Shown: positions 7,565 through 13,418 of the stretch, one piece after another
How the letters are laid out: every line of letters starts with the position of its first letter
Position numbering within the stretch: the stretch's first letter is position 1
From: Flavobacteriales bacterium
GTDB taxonomy: Bacteria; Bacteroidota; Bacteroidia; Flavobacteriales; TMED113
Length of the DNA stretch: 44,742 nt
Direction of reading: 5' to 3'
Assembly: GCA_002722215.1 (NCBI GenBank)
Contig: PBKX01000016.1
Coordinates: forward strand, 16,927-61,668
Made by a program: the position numbers and the translations under genes
The notes under the pieces: generated by a model
Databases searched by the model: none
Told to the model about the DNA's origin: nothing
What the model saw: only the letters and a program-made list of their open reading frames with translations

Positions 7565-8161
7565 TTAATTAACTTCGTAATCAATCACTACCTCTGTCGA
7601 TTCAGATGGATTATCTTGTATATAAAAACGATATGTAACTGAATATATACCGGGAACATCTGAAGTTAAATATCCTTTAAAATAATCATCTTCTTCAAAA
7701 GGCCCTAGATTTAGAGGGTTTGGAGATGTTATCGTTTCAGAGGTAAAACAAATACCATTGAAACAGAAATATGCAGATGCATTATTGTCATTAAAAATCT
7801 TTCGCACTACTAGATTGTTCATGTTCTCACAAGATGCATTTCTAACATGTATATGTGATACGAGCAAACTATCAACCTCTCCGACAACATATTCTTCAAC
7901 ATGTGTAATCTCTATCGGATTTGGTAGTGCATCCGCTTCATATAAACATGAACCATCATCACAGATAGATGAAGCATTATAATTACAAGCTAATACATCC
8001 ATGCATCCATCAGGTAAATTACAAGAGTCATCATCATCGGTTGCATTAGGGTTATAATTACATGCTAAAGAGTCTGTGCAACCAGAAATCATATCCGGGG
8101 GACAGCCAATAAATAATAACAAACCACTAAGCAGTGAAATTTTTAAATAAAGTGTTTTCAT
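7565..8161 (-). CDS. Lipoprotein with Cys-rich GCxD...DDGSC-type repeats, unknown function
   Basis: This is a 198-residue predicted outer membrane or surface lipoprotein. The signal peptide MKTLYLKISLLSGLLLFIG is followed by Cys20 in a lipobox-like context. Two copies of a short Cys-rich repeat follow (about residues 27-66): GCTDSLACNYNPNATDDDD-SC and GCMDVLACNYNASSICDDG-SC. This unit is common in secreted proteins of marine Bacteroidota, with Asp/Asn-rich turns that suggest calcium binding (inference). The remaining ~120 residues look like a beta-sandwich resembling CARDB-like domains (VEEYVVGEVDSLLVSHIHVR onward). I chose the ATG at 8161 over one 30 bp upstream because it gives a clean lipobox signal peptide and because a TAnnTTTG element at 8189-8196 would place the transcript start inside the longer version. 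No function can be assigned. Confidence 0.72.
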   Translation of the reverse strand: MKTLYLKISLLSGLLLFIGCPPDMISGCTDSLACNYNPNATDDDDSCNLPDGCMDVLACNYNASSICDDGSCLYEADALPNPIEITHVEEYVVGEVDSLLVSHIHVRNASCENMNNLVVRKIFNDNNASAYFCFNGICFTSETITSPNPLNLGPFEEDDYFKGYLTSDVPGIYSVTYRFYIQDNPSESTEVVIDYEVN

Positions 8162-8188
8162 AAAAATCAAATTTAAATTGATCTTATA

Positions 8189-8196
8189 CAAATTTA
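8189..8196 (-). promoter_or_regulatory. Bacteroidota -7 promoter element upstream of the lipoprotein gene
   Basis: The minus strand reads TAAATTTG, an exact match to the Bacteroidota consensus TAnnTTTG. It sits about 28 bp upstream of the chosen ATG at 8161. I see no TTG at the usual -33 distance. A second TAAATTTG (8168-8175) is too close to the start codon to be the main promoter. Confidence 0.45.
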
Positions 8197-8294: not shown

Positions 8295-9716
8295 ATGAAA
8301 AAACTATTACTATTTGCTATATGTTCAATTTTTTATTGCTCATATGCTCAATTACCTCCTAATAGCTTTGGTGAAGACTTTACATTAACTGATATTAATG
8401 GAAATGAATTTAATCTACACTCTACTCTAGATGAAGGGAAAACAGTTATATTAGATTTATTTGCTACTTGGTGTGGTCCATGTTGGAGTTATGCAGAGAC
8501 GGGCGTCTTAGAAGAGCTCCAAGAAGCATATCCAGATGATGTAGTTTGTGTTGCTGTAGAAGCAGATCCAAGTACCCTGGAATCAACACTGACAAATAGT
8601 GACCTAGGTGACTGGACGAGTGTTATTAATTATTTACTAATGGATGATCCAAGTGGCGATGTTGCGGACGACTACGCATTAGCATACTATCCAACAATAT
8701 ATAAAATTTGTCCAGATAGAATGGTAACAGAAGTCGGCCAATTAACTAGCGTGAGTGCTTTTATGGGCGAAATTGGCTCATGTACTAGCGCGCAATATAG
8801 TAAAGACGCAAAAATACTATCTTATAATGGAGATCCTACTTATTGTGGCGGCAGCTTAGAATCAGCATCTGTTACAATTCAAAACTATAGTATAGGAGCA
8901 ACATTAAGTGCATGTGATATATTAACAAAGATTAATGGATCTACAGTAGATACTTATCCTTGGTCAGGGTCGTTAAGCACTTATCAGACAGCTACAGTTG
9001 ATCTAGGATCAATTTCTAATATTCCAGATGGCGCAAATATAAGTTTTGAAATAGACTATAGCGGAGATATGGACGAAAGTAATAATACGTTAAACACATC
9101 AATTGAAGGGTCTGTGTCAAGCTCTAATTATGTTTCTTTGTATATAATGACAGATAATTGGGGATATGAAACATCTTGGGAACTATTGAATGAATGGGGC
9201 GTGATTGCATCTGGATCCGGTTATGGAAATTATGAGATCATTGAAGAAAGCTGGGAGTTAGATGCTGGATGTTATACATTCCATGTATATGATGAATATG
9301 GTGATGGTGTGGAAGCTTCAATGTGGGGAGCATATGATGATGGTGTAGTGACACTTACCGATAATGGTGGAAATAGCACCCTTTTAGATGTAGTTCAATT
9401 TGAATCTCAGGCGACAGTAGCATTTGAAATAACAGAATCATTAGGAATTGAAGATGCTGAAGAAATTGAAGTGAACGTGTTTCCGAATCCGTTTAAAGAA
9501 TATACAAATCTTGCTATATACTCTCCGAATTCTGAGGAAATATCTGTAGAAATATATAATAACCTTGGGAAGGTAGTATATAACAATGAGGTCATGTTAA
9601 TTCCAGGCTCAAATAATATTAAAATAGAATCTAATAAATTATTCCCTGGATTATATTATATGAATGTAATGATTGATGGTAAAAACATCTTAAAGCCATT
9701 AACCATACTAAAATAG
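8295..9716 (+). CDS. Secreted thioredoxin-fold (redoxin/TlpA-like) protein with T9SS C-terminal sorting domain
   Basis: This 473-residue extracellular or surface protein is predicted to carry out thiol-disulfide chemistry outside the cell. Domains in order: signal peptide (MKKLLLFAICSIFYCSYA, cut before Gln19); thioredoxin-like domain (about 22-165) with active site W-C60-G-P-C63 and a YYPTIYKI segment that may hold the cis-Pro; a CARDB-like beta domain (about 175-270, ending in DESNNT); a beta domain (about 277-375) with the GCYTFHVYDEYGDGVE pattern seen in secreted Bacteroidota proteins; and a type A T9SS sorting domain (about 393-473) that begins near VFPNPF and ends LKPLTILK. It is followed directly by a strong terminator. 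Export through the T9SS fits with sprA in the same window. The redox substrate is unknown. Confidence 0.85.
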   Translation: MKKLLLFAICSIFYCSYAQLPPNSFGEDFTLTDINGNEFNLHSTLDEGKTVILDLFATWCGPCWSYAETGVLEELQEAYPDDVVCVAVEADPSTLESTLTNSDLGDWTSVINYLLMDDPSGDVADDYALAYYPTIYKICPDRMVTEVGQLTSVSAFMGEIGSCTSAQYSKDAKILSYNGDPTYCGGSLESASVTIQNYSIGATLSACDILTKINGSTVDTYPWSGSLSTYQTATVDLGSISNIPDGANISFEIDYSGDMDESNNTLNTSIEGSVSSSNYVSLYIMTDNWGYETSWELLNEWGVIASGSGYGNYEIIEESWELDAGCYTFHVYDEYGDGVEASMWGAYDDGVVTLTDNGGNSTLLDVVQFESQATVAFEITESLGIEDAEEIEVNVFPNPFKEYTNLAIYSPNSEEISVEIYNNLGKVVYNNEVMLIPGSNNIKIESNKLFPGLYYMNVMIDGKNILKPLTILK

Positions 9717-9774: not shown

Positions 9775-9789
9775 AATTTTAAAATAAAA

Positions 9790-10266
9790 ATGAAAAGATA
9801 TTATTATTTACTGTTCCTGATGAGTGCTATTTGTTTATCTCAAATACCATCAGTGGATATTAAAACGCTAGAAAATACTATTATTAACACTTCTGAATTT
9901 GAAAATAATGGTAACCCAATAGTAATTAGCTTTTGGGCAACATGGTGCAAACCATGTAAACAAGAATTAGAAAATATTCATGAAGTATATAGCGATTGGC
10001 AAGAAGAAACAAATGTAAAATTAATTGCAATCAGTATTGATGATGCAAGAAACACCTCCAAAATAAAACCTTTAGTAAATGCTAAAGGATGGGAATATGA
10101 AATATACCAAGACAGCAATCGCGAATTTGCAACTAAAATGGGCGTTAATATGATTCCACATACTTTCCTATTAAATAAGGAAAAAGAAATTGTTTGGGAC
10201 CACGTTACATATACTGATGGAGATGAAGAAGATCTCTATGAAAAAATTCTTGAATTAATTGACTAG
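9790..10266 (+). CDS. TlpA-like periplasmic thioredoxin
   Basis: This 158-residue exported thiol-disulfide oxidoreductase has a signal peptide MKRYYYLLFLMSAICLSQ and then a compact TlpA/redoxin domain with active site W52-C53-K-P-C56. A cis-Pro motif follows (VNMIPHTFLL), and the KLIAISIDD strand is typical of the family. An ATG at 9754 in the same frame would add 12 residues. I rejected it because it sits inside the terminator hairpin and would bury the signal peptide. The stop codon precedes the DUF6029 start at 10271 by 4 bp, which indicates cotranslation. The likely role is to keep cysteines of the neighbouring envelope proteins reduced or correctly paired. Location after cleavage is periplasm; no lipobox is seen. 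Confidence 0.86.
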   Translation: MKRYYYLLFLMSAICLSQIPSVDIKTLENTIINTSEFENNGNPIVISFWATWCKPCKQELENIHEVYSDWQEETNVKLIAISIDDARNTSKIKPLVNAKGWEYEIYQDSNREFATKMGVNMIPHTFLLNKEKEIVWDHVTYTDGDEEDLYEKILELID

Positions 10267-10270
10267 TCGA

Positions 10271-11932
10271 ATGTGCAAAAAAATTAGTGTCATTATTTTA
10301 TTGCTTTCTTGCAATCTCTTGAGTCAAGATTATGGAAGCCACAATATAAGTGGTAATAGCCAGCTGAATTATCAAACATTTCAGGAAGACAATACCATTA
10401 ACGCTGACAAAAGAAAACCATACACATCAGGATATACTAATTTACTATACAATTACAACCAACTGAGTATCGGGACAAGATTAGAATTATATAATAACCC
10501 TATTCCCGGCCTTACAGAATACCAGGGATATGGAATAGCAAATAAGTTTATTCAATATAATAACCGAAATATTGATGTTACAATTGGAAATTTTTATGAA
10601 GAATTTGGAAGTGGGTTAATTCTTCGAAGCTACTTTGATCCTAATTTAGGTATAGACAACTCTATTAACGGATTCCGATTAAAGATTACATCTCCAAAAC
10701 ATGGAATATATTGCACCACATTAATTGGGCATCAAAAATCATACTGGGAATATAGCAAAAGTTTGATTCGAGCAATAAATTTAGACATAGGGTTAAATGA
10801 TTTTTTATTAAAGGATTGGGAATCTATAATTAATCTAGGGGGTAGTTTTGTAACAAAAAAAGAAGTTGATAATGACCCTATATATATATTGCCTGCAAAT
10901 ATTGGAGCGTTTAATGGGCGCATTAGCATAACTAAAAAAAACACTTCCGTAAATTTAGATTATGCATATAAAATTAATGACCCAAATGCTGAGAATAATT
11001 ATATCTATAAAAATGGGAATGCTGTGATTCTAACTACTAATTATTCTAAAAAAGGGCTTGGGGTTTCATTTGGCGCAAAGAGAATTCAAAATATGAGTTT
11101 TCGGAGTGAAAGAAATGCTATTTTACAAGATTTAAATATTAACTACATTACTCCATTTACTAAACAACAAGCCTATTCTTTAGCAACAATATACCCATAT
11201 TCTAGTCAGGCAAATGGAGAAATGGGTCTGCAATTTGATTTTTATTATACAGTTCCTAAAAAATCGAAAATTGGGGGGAAATACGGCACCCAAATTAATA
11301 TCAATTTTTCTAATATGTTTAGTATTAACAAAACCCTCGCTAGCGATGCTGAAGTACTAAATCAAAGTGGAACAGTTGGTTATGATTCTAATTTTTGGCA
11401 ATTAGGAGAAGATCAATTATTTCAAGAATTTAATATTGAAGTCAGTAAAAAAATTAATAGAAATCTAAAATTAATAGGAACATATATTGATCTAATCAAT
11501 AATGATAAAATTCTTAAATCCCAATCGATACCTGAAAACAAACAACACGAAATCATAAAGGCAAAAATTGTCATATTAGAGTCAATCATAAAGACAGGCT
11601 CTATAAAATTTCCATTATTCAACAAACCTGCTAGAACATCTATCAGAACTGAAATACAACACCTATATACTGAACAACATTTTGGAAATTGGGCAATGGG
11701 CCTAATAGAGTATAAAATTTCAAAATTATTTTTCTCTGTACAAGACTTATATAATTACGGCTATAGCGAAAAACCTCATTATTATTCTACATCCATTGGT
11801 TATAATCAGGGAGCACATAGAATAGCAATAACTTACGGAAAACAAAGACAAGGATTATTTTGTGTCGGGGGAGTGTGTAGAGAAGTGCCTGCATCAAATG
11901 GGTTTTTAATTAGTTTAACGAGTTCATTTTAA
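10271..11932 (+). CDS. DUF6029-type predicted outer membrane beta-barrel protein
   Basis: This 553-residue exported protein has a signal peptide (MCKKISVIILLLSCNLLSQ). The rest is almost entirely alternating beta segments with aromatic girdle residues, ending in a C-terminal strand GFLISLTSSF typical of an outer membrane barrel. It resembles the DUF6029 family, which in Bacteroidota is often found next to Omp28-type genes (recalled, not searched). The N-terminal region (LYNNPIPGLTEYQGYGIANK and then VTIGNFYEEFGSGLILRSYF) is the most family-like part. A Cys pair, C531-V-G-G-V-C536, sits in the last hairpin. A TTG 12 bp upstream is in frame, but the ATG starts exactly at the signal peptide. It is in one operon with the TlpA-like gene (4-bp gap) and the Omp28 gene (3-bp gap). 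Function is unknown. Confidence 0.75.
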   Translation: MCKKISVIILLLSCNLLSQDYGSHNISGNSQLNYQTFQEDNTINADKRKPYTSGYTNLLYNYNQLSIGTRLELYNNPIPGLTEYQGYGIANKFIQYNNRNIDVTIGNFYEEFGSGLILRSYFDPNLGIDNSINGFRLKITSPKHGIYCTTLIGHQKSYWEYSKSLIRAINLDIGLNDFLLKDWESIINLGGSFVTKKEVDNDPIYILPANIGAFNGRISITKKNTSVNLDYAYKINDPNAENNYIYKNGNAVILTTNYSKKGLGVSFGAKRIQNMSFRSERNAILQDLNINYITPFTKQQAYSLATIYPYSSQANGEMGLQFDFYYTVPKKSKIGGKYGTQININFSNMFSINKTLASDAEVLNQSGTVGYDSNFWQLGEDQLFQEFNIEVSKKINRNLKLIGTYIDLINNDKILKSQSIPENKQHEIIKAKIVILESIIKTGSIKFPLFNKPARTSIRTEIQHLYTEQHFGNWAMGLIEYKISKLFFSVQDLYNYGYSEKPHYYSTSIGYNQGAHRIAITYGKQRQGLFCVGGVCREVPASNGFLISLTSSF

Positions 11933-11935
11933 ATT

Positions 11936-12811
11936 ATGAAAAAAAGAATACCTGCAATTTTGTTAATTATTTTATTATGCTGGATATCATGTGATAAAAT
12001 AGAGCCACCATATATAGAAGCCGGAAATCAGAGCGCGGAAAAAACTATATTAATTGAAAAGTTTACTGGGCATAAATGTAGTAATTGTCCAGAAGCAAGC
12101 AGAAAAGTAGATGAATTAAAGGATTTTTATAAAGACAATTTAATTTCTATTGCCATACATCCTGGGGCATTAACAGAATTCACTGGCATTGATGAAAATT
12201 ATCCGTATGATTTCACAACTAATGCTAGTGATTTAATTGCAACTGATATGGGAGCTAGTTTCCTCCCTCTTGGAACTGTAAATAGAGTGGCCGGTGGAAT
12301 TTCTAATAGATGTTTTACAAAAGATGAATGGGCACAAGAAATAGATAATTTATTATATGATGATGATGGGAACCCCTTGGAAAAAAACATCGATTTTAGC
12401 ATAAACACCTCATTAAATGAGTTAAATAAAGAACTTACTATTCAAACTAATATTATCCTACTAAACAATCTAGAAACTAATTATAATTTATGTCTTGTAA
12501 TAATAGAAGATGGAATTATTTCTCCACAAGATGATGGAAGTGAAACAATTCAAGATTATGAACATAATGATATTTATAGATCTGCTGTAAATGGGGCATA
12601 TGGAGAAAATATAACCAAATTTGCTTTTGTTAGCCTAGAAGGACAATCCGGATATCAAGCAACACACACCTTAATATTTAATGAAGATGCTAATGTTAAT
12701 TGGACAAATGATTGGAATAATATAAATAATTGTGCTGTATTAGCATATGTTTATAATACGGAGACCTTGGTTATTGAGCATGTTCAAAAACATCATATTA
12801 TTCATGAATAA
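11936..12811 (+). CDS. Omp28-type outer membrane lipoprotein with thioredoxin-like CxxC
   Basis: This 291-residue predicted lipoprotein has the signal MKKRIPAILLIILLCWIS followed by Cys19. The mature part starts with a thioredoxin-like stretch, ILIEKFTGHKCSNCPEA, where C48-S-N-C51 is the redox-type motif. ISIAIHPGALTEF and FLPLGTVNR follow (the latter is the cis-Pro region). This layout is characteristic of Omp28 proteins of Bacteroidota, first described as an outer membrane antigen of Porphyromonas gingivalis. The C-terminal half (about 155-291) is a beta-rich domain with LCLVIIEDGIISPQ and a HNDIYRSAVNG segment. It is the third gene of the tlpA-like operon, and its stop codon overlaps the start of the next gene. 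The substrate is unknown; disulfide handling for the adjacent barrel is inference. Confidence 0.83.
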   Translation: MKKRIPAILLIILLCWISCDKIEPPYIEAGNQSAEKTILIEKFTGHKCSNCPEASRKVDELKDFYKDNLISIAIHPGALTEFTGIDENYPYDFTTNASDLIATDMGASFLPLGTVNRVAGGISNRCFTKDEWAQEIDNLLYDDDGNPLEKNIDFSINTSLNELNKELTIQTNIILLNNLETNYNLCLVIIEDGIISPQDDGSETIQDYEHNDIYRSAVNGAYGENITKFAFVSLEGQSGYQATHTLIFNEDANVNWTNDWNNINNCAVLAYVYNTETLVIEHVQKHHIIHE

Positions 12812-13418
12812 AATTGTTGTCTTTTTTTTTATTTTGGCATCAAATTTTTGCTATAGTCAAGACTTCAATGCAGGCACTATTATTGGGATAAACACCAGTC
12901 AAGTATCAGGTGATAATTTATCCGGATTCAATAAATTGGGGCTTAGAATCGGTGGATTTGTAAATCGGAAATTCCGACATTTTGATGGACAAATAGAATT
13001 ACAATACATAAACAAAGGTAGTCGAGAACTAATTGAACAAAACACATATAACGAAGGCTATAAGTTTCAAGTCAATTATATAGAAATACCTATTTCAATG
13101 AAAAAAAACATATATAAAAACAGTCATGTTGAATTAGGATTTTCCATAGGACATCTACTCAATTGGATTGAAGAATACGATGGAATTGATAATTATGGAA
13201 TTGATATAAAAAAAATTGAATATAGTTGTCATATAGGATTTCAATATAAAATTAATCCGAATCTATATTTTAACAGCAGACTCTCTAATTCCCTTTCCCC
13301 GATAAGACCACACTCTTTGAATCAACATAATTCAGATTCTAATGTATATCAATGGAATAGAGGACAGTATAATACATCTATATCTTTTGTAATAAAGTAT
13401 TATTTTCTTAAAAAATAG
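12804..13418 (+). CDS. PorT-like outer membrane beta-barrel protein
   Basis: This 204-residue exported protein has a signal peptide [19 protein letters not shown] followed by a short 8-10-strand barrel of the outer-membrane-protein beta-barrel type often annotated as PorT family ([17 protein letters not shown] at the start, then [20 protein letters not shown], and a final [11 protein letters not shown] strand). The start chosen is the ATG at 12804, which overlaps the Omp28 stop by 8 bp. An upstream in-frame ATG at 12747 would put 19 residues of Omp28-overlapping sequence ahead of the signal peptide. The 3' end overlaps the convergent ruvB 3' end by 11 bp. PorT proper is a T9SS component, but this broad family includes many unrelated barrels, so no T9SS role is claimed. 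Confidence 0.75.

Follow-up and report, generated by a model that had tools for sequence, protein, structure and literature searches.

An invariant cysteine pair in the last hairpin of DUF6029 outer-membrane barrels co-occurs with a TlpA-like thioredoxin-fold protein in Bacteroidota

The window, i.e. the whole analyzed stretch of 44,742 nucleotides from a Flavobacteriales bacterium (contig PBKX01000016.1), harbors a gene cluster around an outer-membrane barrel of the DUF6029 family (Table 1). The family match (PF19494, cut-off 27 bits) spans residues 3-553 of 553 and was the sole Pfam match of this protein at E<=0.01; no match to the Wzi family and, by sequence, no solved homologue was found for it. 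Residues are numbered from the ATG at 10271, as the start set by the ORF tool (TTG 10259) lies within the TlpA gene. The protein carries a signal peptide, alternating amphipathic strands and a C-terminal aromatic residue, which are marks of outer-membrane barrels. The TlpA-like protein encoded upstream scores below the NCBIfam cut-offs for ResA (71.4/170 bits), DsbE (56.4/123.15 bits) and TlpA (37.1/230 bits). Judged by its sequence, it probably resembles ResA, DsbE and TlpA in its mode of working (CxPC, exported), yet belongs to none of these named types. The Omp28 lipoprotein passes the cut-offs of its families (NF033782, 151.2 versus 150 bits; PF11551, 74 versus 34.9 bits), whereas the divergent ORF at the other end of the cluster showed no Pfam match at E<=0.01. 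Close relatives contain similar T9SS-tailed genes at the place of the 8295-9716 gene. An earlier note on this DNA had counted two thiol oxidoreductases co-encoded with the barrel. Their co-encoding holds, but the number was too low, because the T9SS-tailed thioredoxin-domain protein, the TlpA-like protein and the Omp28 lipoprotein with its CSNC motif all flank the barrel gene.

Table 1. Features of the DUF6029 gene cluster, with positions counted from the first letter of the window
Feature	Position	Strand	Basis
Divergent Cys-rich lipoprotein-like ORF, CFNGIC	7565..8191	-	member of second family with invariant Cys pair
Thioredoxin-domain protein, WCGPC, T9SS C-terminal sorting domain, probably cell-surface	8295..9716	+	PF00578/PF00085 N-terminal, PF18962 C-terminal
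TlpA/ResA-like periplasmic thioredoxin-fold protein, 159 aa, WCKPC active site	9787..10266	+	PF00578 73.7 bits, PF08534 56.2 bits
DUF6029 outer-membrane barrel, 553 aa from ATG	10271..11932	+	PF19494, 515.1 bits, residues 3-553
Last hairpin and closing strand, G528-F553	11852..11929	+	column counts, model strands, hydrophobic alternation
CVGGVC, residues 531-536, invariant C-x-x-G-x-C	11861..11878	+	codons TGT GTC GGG GGA GTG TGT
Omp28-family lipoprotein, CSNC (CxxC) near N-terminus, lipobox-like WISC	11936..12811	+	PF11551; NF033782; lipobox from sequence
Small OMP_b-brl_2 barrel, last cluster gene	12804..13418	+	PF13568 38.7 bits

The window DUF6029 protein contains five cysteines. Two of them (C2, C14) lie in the signal peptide; the others are C148, C531 and C536. 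The last two belong to a CVGGVC motif that is directly followed by REVP, and the codons translate as the earlier note had read them. For comparison, 120 loci of ~11 kb were fetched from the sampled genomes in which the family was detected, and their DUF6029 ORFs were identified by iterated profile search and aligned with the window protein, to which they show 13.8% to 74.5% identity. Counts refer to 118 rows, from which L097 (barrel ending at about profile position 355), L095 (main ORF frameshifted; its 65-aa tail was also left out), the non-member L158, the second partial copy of L164, and L032-L034 (same contigs as L159, L166 and L160) were omitted. Cysteines occupy the columns of C531 and C536 in 118/118 rows; in the columns of C2, C14 and C148 only the window protein itself has one. 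The C-x-x-G-x-C spacing is likewise constant in 118/118 rows, in the forms CVGGVC (41), CTSGIC (21), CVGGIC (14), CIGGVC (13) and twelve others, and 17 residues (112 rows) or 18 residues (6 rows) separate it from the C-terminus. Only eight columns of the family are invariant, two Cys and six Gly (G106, G115, G134, G190, G528, C531, G534 and C536), and the motif cysteines are the sole ones past residue 25 in 87/118 rows. The column of residue 553 holds Phe in 90/118 rows and a hydrophobic residue in all rows with a letter. The motif was also present in 28/28 DUF6029 proteins from outside the sample. The similar pair that the earlier note ascribed to other family members is thus confirmed for both cysteines. 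A lack of conservation, which that note would have taken as refutation, does not apply, and on these alignments the invariant Cys pair is a hallmark of the DUF6029 family.

DUF6029 was found in 98 of 395 sampled genomes of the Bacteroidota phylum, a figure that includes one weak match (G227, locus L158; 19.1 bits) which fell below the cut-off and was rejected as a member and removed from the counts. In the order to which the window belongs, 138 of 296 genomes contain the family. No DUF6029 sequence appeared in a scan of viral contigs or in PHROGs. A profile covering the final 50 residues matched in 81/296 genomes and, outside DUF6029 genes, yielded five weak scraps with E values of 6.9e-4 or worse, of which one is a decayed DUF6029 gene of genome G140. 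The possibility that Bacteroidota barrels in general bear this motif was therefore rejected. The scrap in G226 at 3451249 (7.7 bits) is most likely a chance match.

The position of the pair was assessed with AlphaFold2 models, each based on four sequences. The full-length model (pLDDT 41) served for strand assignment only, and the usable model covers residues 382-553 only, with a mean pLDDT of 79 and block means of 80 and 69 in the hairpin; its numbers 147-151, 154-158 and 161-170 correspond to residues 528-532, 535-539 and 542-551. In this partial model ten strands precede the closing strand at 542-551, and strands 528-532 and 535-539 pair around G533-G534, so that a turn of two residues places the two cysteines opposite one another. 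The turn residues found across the 118 rows (GG, SG, NG or AG) are compatible with such a turn. Hydrophobic residues alternate in the last two strands at 545, 547, 549, 553 and at 518, 520, 522, and this in/out pattern agrees with the modeled strands in placing the pair in the last hairpin, as the earlier note had proposed. A Foldseek search of the C-terminal model against the PDB gave general porin matches; the 50 best were outer-membrane barrels, all with E>0.01.

Two-residue turns alternate with longer loops in the modeled connections, and the Cys hairpin lies on the longer-loop side. The C-terminal strand of outer-membrane barrels generally ends in the periplasm, and the hairpin is therefore predicted to be extracellular. 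From the hydrophobic alternation of the last strands, both cysteines would face the lumen if the register holds beyond the membrane. Given the two-residue turn, residues 532 and 535 would form a hydrogen-bonded pair and residues 531 and 536 the next, non-hydrogen-bonded pair. Cross-strand disulfides in hairpins with a two-residue turn occupy non-hydrogen-bonded pairs, so the modeled placement of 531 and 536 would correspond to the usual geometry of a cross-strand disulfide. Gly528 (118/118) and Gly544 (117/118) flank the last hairpin and may permit it to bend.

The barrel gene is closely linked to the gene of the TlpA-like protein. With a profile built from adjacent TlpA proteins, which favors these, a TlpA-like ORF was located directly upstream (same strand, -150 to 400 bases from the barrel start) in 98/120 loci, mostly with a 4-base overlap or a few bases off; another search was seeded with the window TlpA. 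The remaining loci comprise five with a divergent TlpA gene, two at contig ends and 15 outside the rule. Under a looser rule that admits divergent or fused genes and one intervening gene, TlpA was present in 105/120 loci. Mere abundance of TlpA genes does not explain the adjacency, as only 9/567 control ORFs of at least 250 aa in the same loci have a TlpA-like ORF upstream. The CxxC active site is retained in 102/103 adjacent copies, the exception being cut by a contig end. In one genus TlpA and DUF6029 are fused in a single ORF (G292/L071 3939-5942, 667 aa; G659/L203 1492-3528, 678 aa). The barrel's own signal peptide is gone in these fusions, and the TlpA domain sits after a signal peptide, which places it in the periplasm. 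At L097 4628-5746, next to an intact TlpA gene, the barrel breaks off after roughly two thirds of its length, and L164 1980-4977 harbors tandem partial and complete copies of both genes.

The association extends beyond adjacent genes. A subfamily profile was made from 18 adjacent TlpA proteins and first run on 64 genomes, of which the 30 with DUF6029 scored 159-215 bits and the 34 without it reached at most 99.7 bits. Eight DUF6029 genomes (families f34 and f29) lack an adjacent TlpA gene but contain the subfamily elsewhere, at 193-215 bits; the profile included no f34 protein. In the phylum sample of 395 genomes, the subfamily was detected in 97/97 genomes with DUF6029 and 0/298 without it (E<=2e-36), although the genomes are related and a Fisher value overstates their independence. 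This boundary was chosen after a gap from 1.1e-36 to 1.4e-32, free of best hits, had been seen; five of the 298 genomes without DUF6029 have TlpA hits between 1.5e-32 and 7.8e-31. The best TlpA lies away from the barrel gene in 12/97 genomes, in one of which (G216) both genes are at contig ends. G140, where only a decayed C-terminal barrel remnant with stop codons persists (L212 5119-5307), has no cognate TlpA, and G226 has kept TlpA with a shortened barrel. Gene linkage, fusion and co-occurrence lend strong support to the connection with a co-encoded thiol oxidoreductase that the earlier note suggested. The interpretation given there is partly borne out, while the redox-controlled folding or gating that it proposed would be a further, conjectural step. 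At most, the data permit the conclusion that the DUF6029 barrel, with its invariant hairpin cysteines, constitutes a functional unit together with one subfamily of TlpA.

Further candidate thiol proteins surround this pair. An Omp28-type or other thioredoxin-fold ORF, recognized with a profile that had widened to the thioredoxin fold, lies directly downstream of the barrel in 87/120 loci, and 86 of these 87 ORFs contain a CxxC within their first 110 residues. Only L069, L096 and L110, the last a contig end, have neither TlpA nor a downstream partner. The C-terminal domain of the 7565-8191 ORF belongs to a second family, in which two Cys and one Asn are invariant (59/59 rows). Its members are often T9SS-tailed, as are all four examples scanned with Pfam. 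This family occurs in 50/120 loci, and it also lies beside 5/6 of the unlinked TlpA genes examined, where DUF6029 is elsewhere. At L119 3398-7527 the order CcdA-TlpA-DUF6029-Omp28 is found on one strand, and another locus has DsbD directly after the barrel gene. Past Omp28, L119 encodes a 930-aa protein that matches multihaem cytochrome and cytochrome b561 families, as well as a protein with a DGC domain; the genome of this locus (G180) harbors a second DUF6029 copy.

The genomes were also analyzed for redox enzymes. DsbD_TM was detected in 65/66 genomes examined, including that of the window. Among 45 DUF6029 genomes, VKOR occurred in 4 and DSBA in 24, an upper figure for periplasmic DsbA because PF01323 includes cytoplasmic relatives; 21 had neither. 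In the window's genome, which is 81% complete, neither the DSBA nor the VKOR family was found. These distributions favor, without proving, a TlpA that reduces or exchanges disulfides rather than one that acts as a simple oxidase.

Taken as a whole, the evidence makes it probable that DUF6029 forms the outer-membrane component of a dedicated thiol-disulfide module, in which the cognate TlpA handles the disulfide of the hairpin. Based on the model and on known hairpin geometry, a Cys531-Cys536 disulfide would act as a clasp for this hairpin, facing the lumen at the barrel's outer mouth. The genetic evidence suggests that the cognate TlpA makes, breaks or corrects this disulfide, with electrons presumably supplied by DsbD/CcdA, and its action on the hairpin would be the simplest mechanism. 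In the folded barrel the hairpin would be outside and TlpA inside, so direct contact requires either an unfolded stage or the lumen. TlpA could thus act during barrel assembly, while the C-terminal strands are still periplasmic, or through the barrel lumen. The Omp28 CxxC lipoprotein and the T9SS-tailed thioredoxin proteins would be the surface partners. The hairpin disulfide may serve as a structural clasp, a gate or a relay to the surface. That TlpA relatives are mostly reductases fits poorly with simple disulfide formation and counts against this reading.

The pair is expected to change its redox state rather than to act as a passive staple, since a staple would hardly require its own TlpA in every genome. 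A disulfide that forms by itself and never cycles could nevertheless stiffen the last extracellular hairpin, shaping the barrel mouth or helping the closing strand to zip up, while TlpA serves other proteins. The predicted ideal hairpin geometry agrees with this, as does the retention of the motif where TlpA is not adjacent (12 loci). So do the 21/45 genomes in which neither a DSBA-family nor a VKOR-family gene was found, which imply that persistence of the motif requires no classical oxidase. However, such a clasp leaves the fusions and the co-occurrence of 97/97 versus 0/298 unexplained, and according to PMC8655018 the extracellular-loop Cys pair of E. coli BamA is dispensable, whereas the DUF6029 pair never varies. 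We therefore regard a purely passive clasp as a minority prospect, well behind a disulfide handled by TlpA. About as tentative is an extension of the latter, a thiol relay across the outer membrane from DsbD/CcdA via the cognate TlpA and a hinged DUF6029 Cys hairpin to surface CxxC proteins (Omp28 and T9SS-tailed thioredoxins) and the second Cys-pair family, by which the cell might set its own surface thiol state.

Linkage and co-occurrence leave the substrate open to another reading, as the barrel could serve its CxxC partners. It would then be an export or display channel for the neighboring CxxC proteins (Omp28-type lipoproteins, the second Cys-pair family and T9SS-tailed thioredoxins), with TlpA keeping the cargo reduced in the periplasm and the hairpin cysteines taking the thiols of the emerging cargo. 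The CxxC partner downstream in 87/120 loci speaks for this, and so does the distribution of the second family, in 50/120 loci and beside 5/6 unlinked TlpA genes. On the other hand, 33/120 loci lack such a downstream gene, many neighbors are T9SS-tailed and hence have a known export route, and the barrel showed no domain for cargo binding; we regard this function as unlikely. Still less credible is a Wzi-like polysaccharide porin in which the Cys pair is incidental. It was proposed in print, where PMC9603273 reports HHpred similarity of some Wzi barrel homologues to DUF6029 and suggests polysaccharide secretion. Against it, no Wzi model is among the Pfam matches of the window protein, and no polysaccharide-export family is among the 25 commonest of 116 matched families (from scans of 93 other neighboring ORFs out of 106 selected); what is found in its place is a thiol cassette. 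A metal or attachment site in place of a disulfide is the least plausible alternative: Cys pairs can bind metals and TlpA-type proteins can act in copper-site assembly, but no other conserved Cys or His lies near the motif, and the spacing over a two-residue turn suits a disulfide.

DUF6029, a family of unknown function, gains a mark in the invariant cysteines of its hairpin and an enzyme as its dedicated partner. The invariant pair together with the paired thioredoxin-like enzyme points to an undescribed disulfide-handling system in many Bacteroidota, which may reach the cell surface. If TlpA acts on the hairpin, Bacteroidota would possess their own disulfide handling in outer-membrane barrels, also where DsbA-family and VKOR-family genes were not found. 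Should thiols be transferred onward to CxxC proteins of the surface, they would follow a redox route through the outer membrane without a precedent known to us. Among the papers searched, a single one contains the term DUF6029. No account of a DUF6029-TlpA module was found in the literature on Omp28/thioredoxin, barrels with loop disulfides, surface thiol relays and Bacteroides periplasmic thioredoxins, which is weak evidence of absence because few subscription journals were covered.

Several known systems share parts of this arrangement. An exported CxPC thioredoxin-fold protein fed by a DsbD-type membrane protein is also found in TlpA, ResA and CcmG with CcdA or DsbD. These are known to act on apocytochrome c or on proteins with copper centres, whereas the tight partner here is an outer-membrane barrel. 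BamA of E. coli has one disulfide in a barrel (Cys690-Cys700), as is predicted for DUF6029; that of BamA is located in extracellular loop 6. To our knowledge, no gene-linked oxidoreductase accompanies BamA. Its cysteines are separated by nine residues, those of DUF6029 by four, and BamA without cysteines reportedly behaves as the wild type does (PMC8655018), whereas the DUF6029 pair is invariant. LptD is another outer-membrane barrel, whose disulfides control its activation and depend on periplasmic thiol enzymes, as described in PMC10567701. By analogy with LptD maturation, enzyme action before the barrel closes would be one proposed route for DUF6029. LptD contains two disulfides that are formed by DsbA and corrected by DsbC, whereas DUF6029 has one tight pair in its last hairpin and its own TlpA-like protein; Pfam matches of the window protein revealed no sequence relation between them. 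On the surface side, HBP35 of Porphyromonas gingivalis is a surface protein with a thioredoxin motif and a T9SS C-terminal domain, and its thioredoxin activity is lost once the two active-site cysteines are replaced, according to PMC2907840. With its thioredoxin motif and T9SS C-terminal domain, HBP35 resembles the protein encoded at 8295-9716 of the window.
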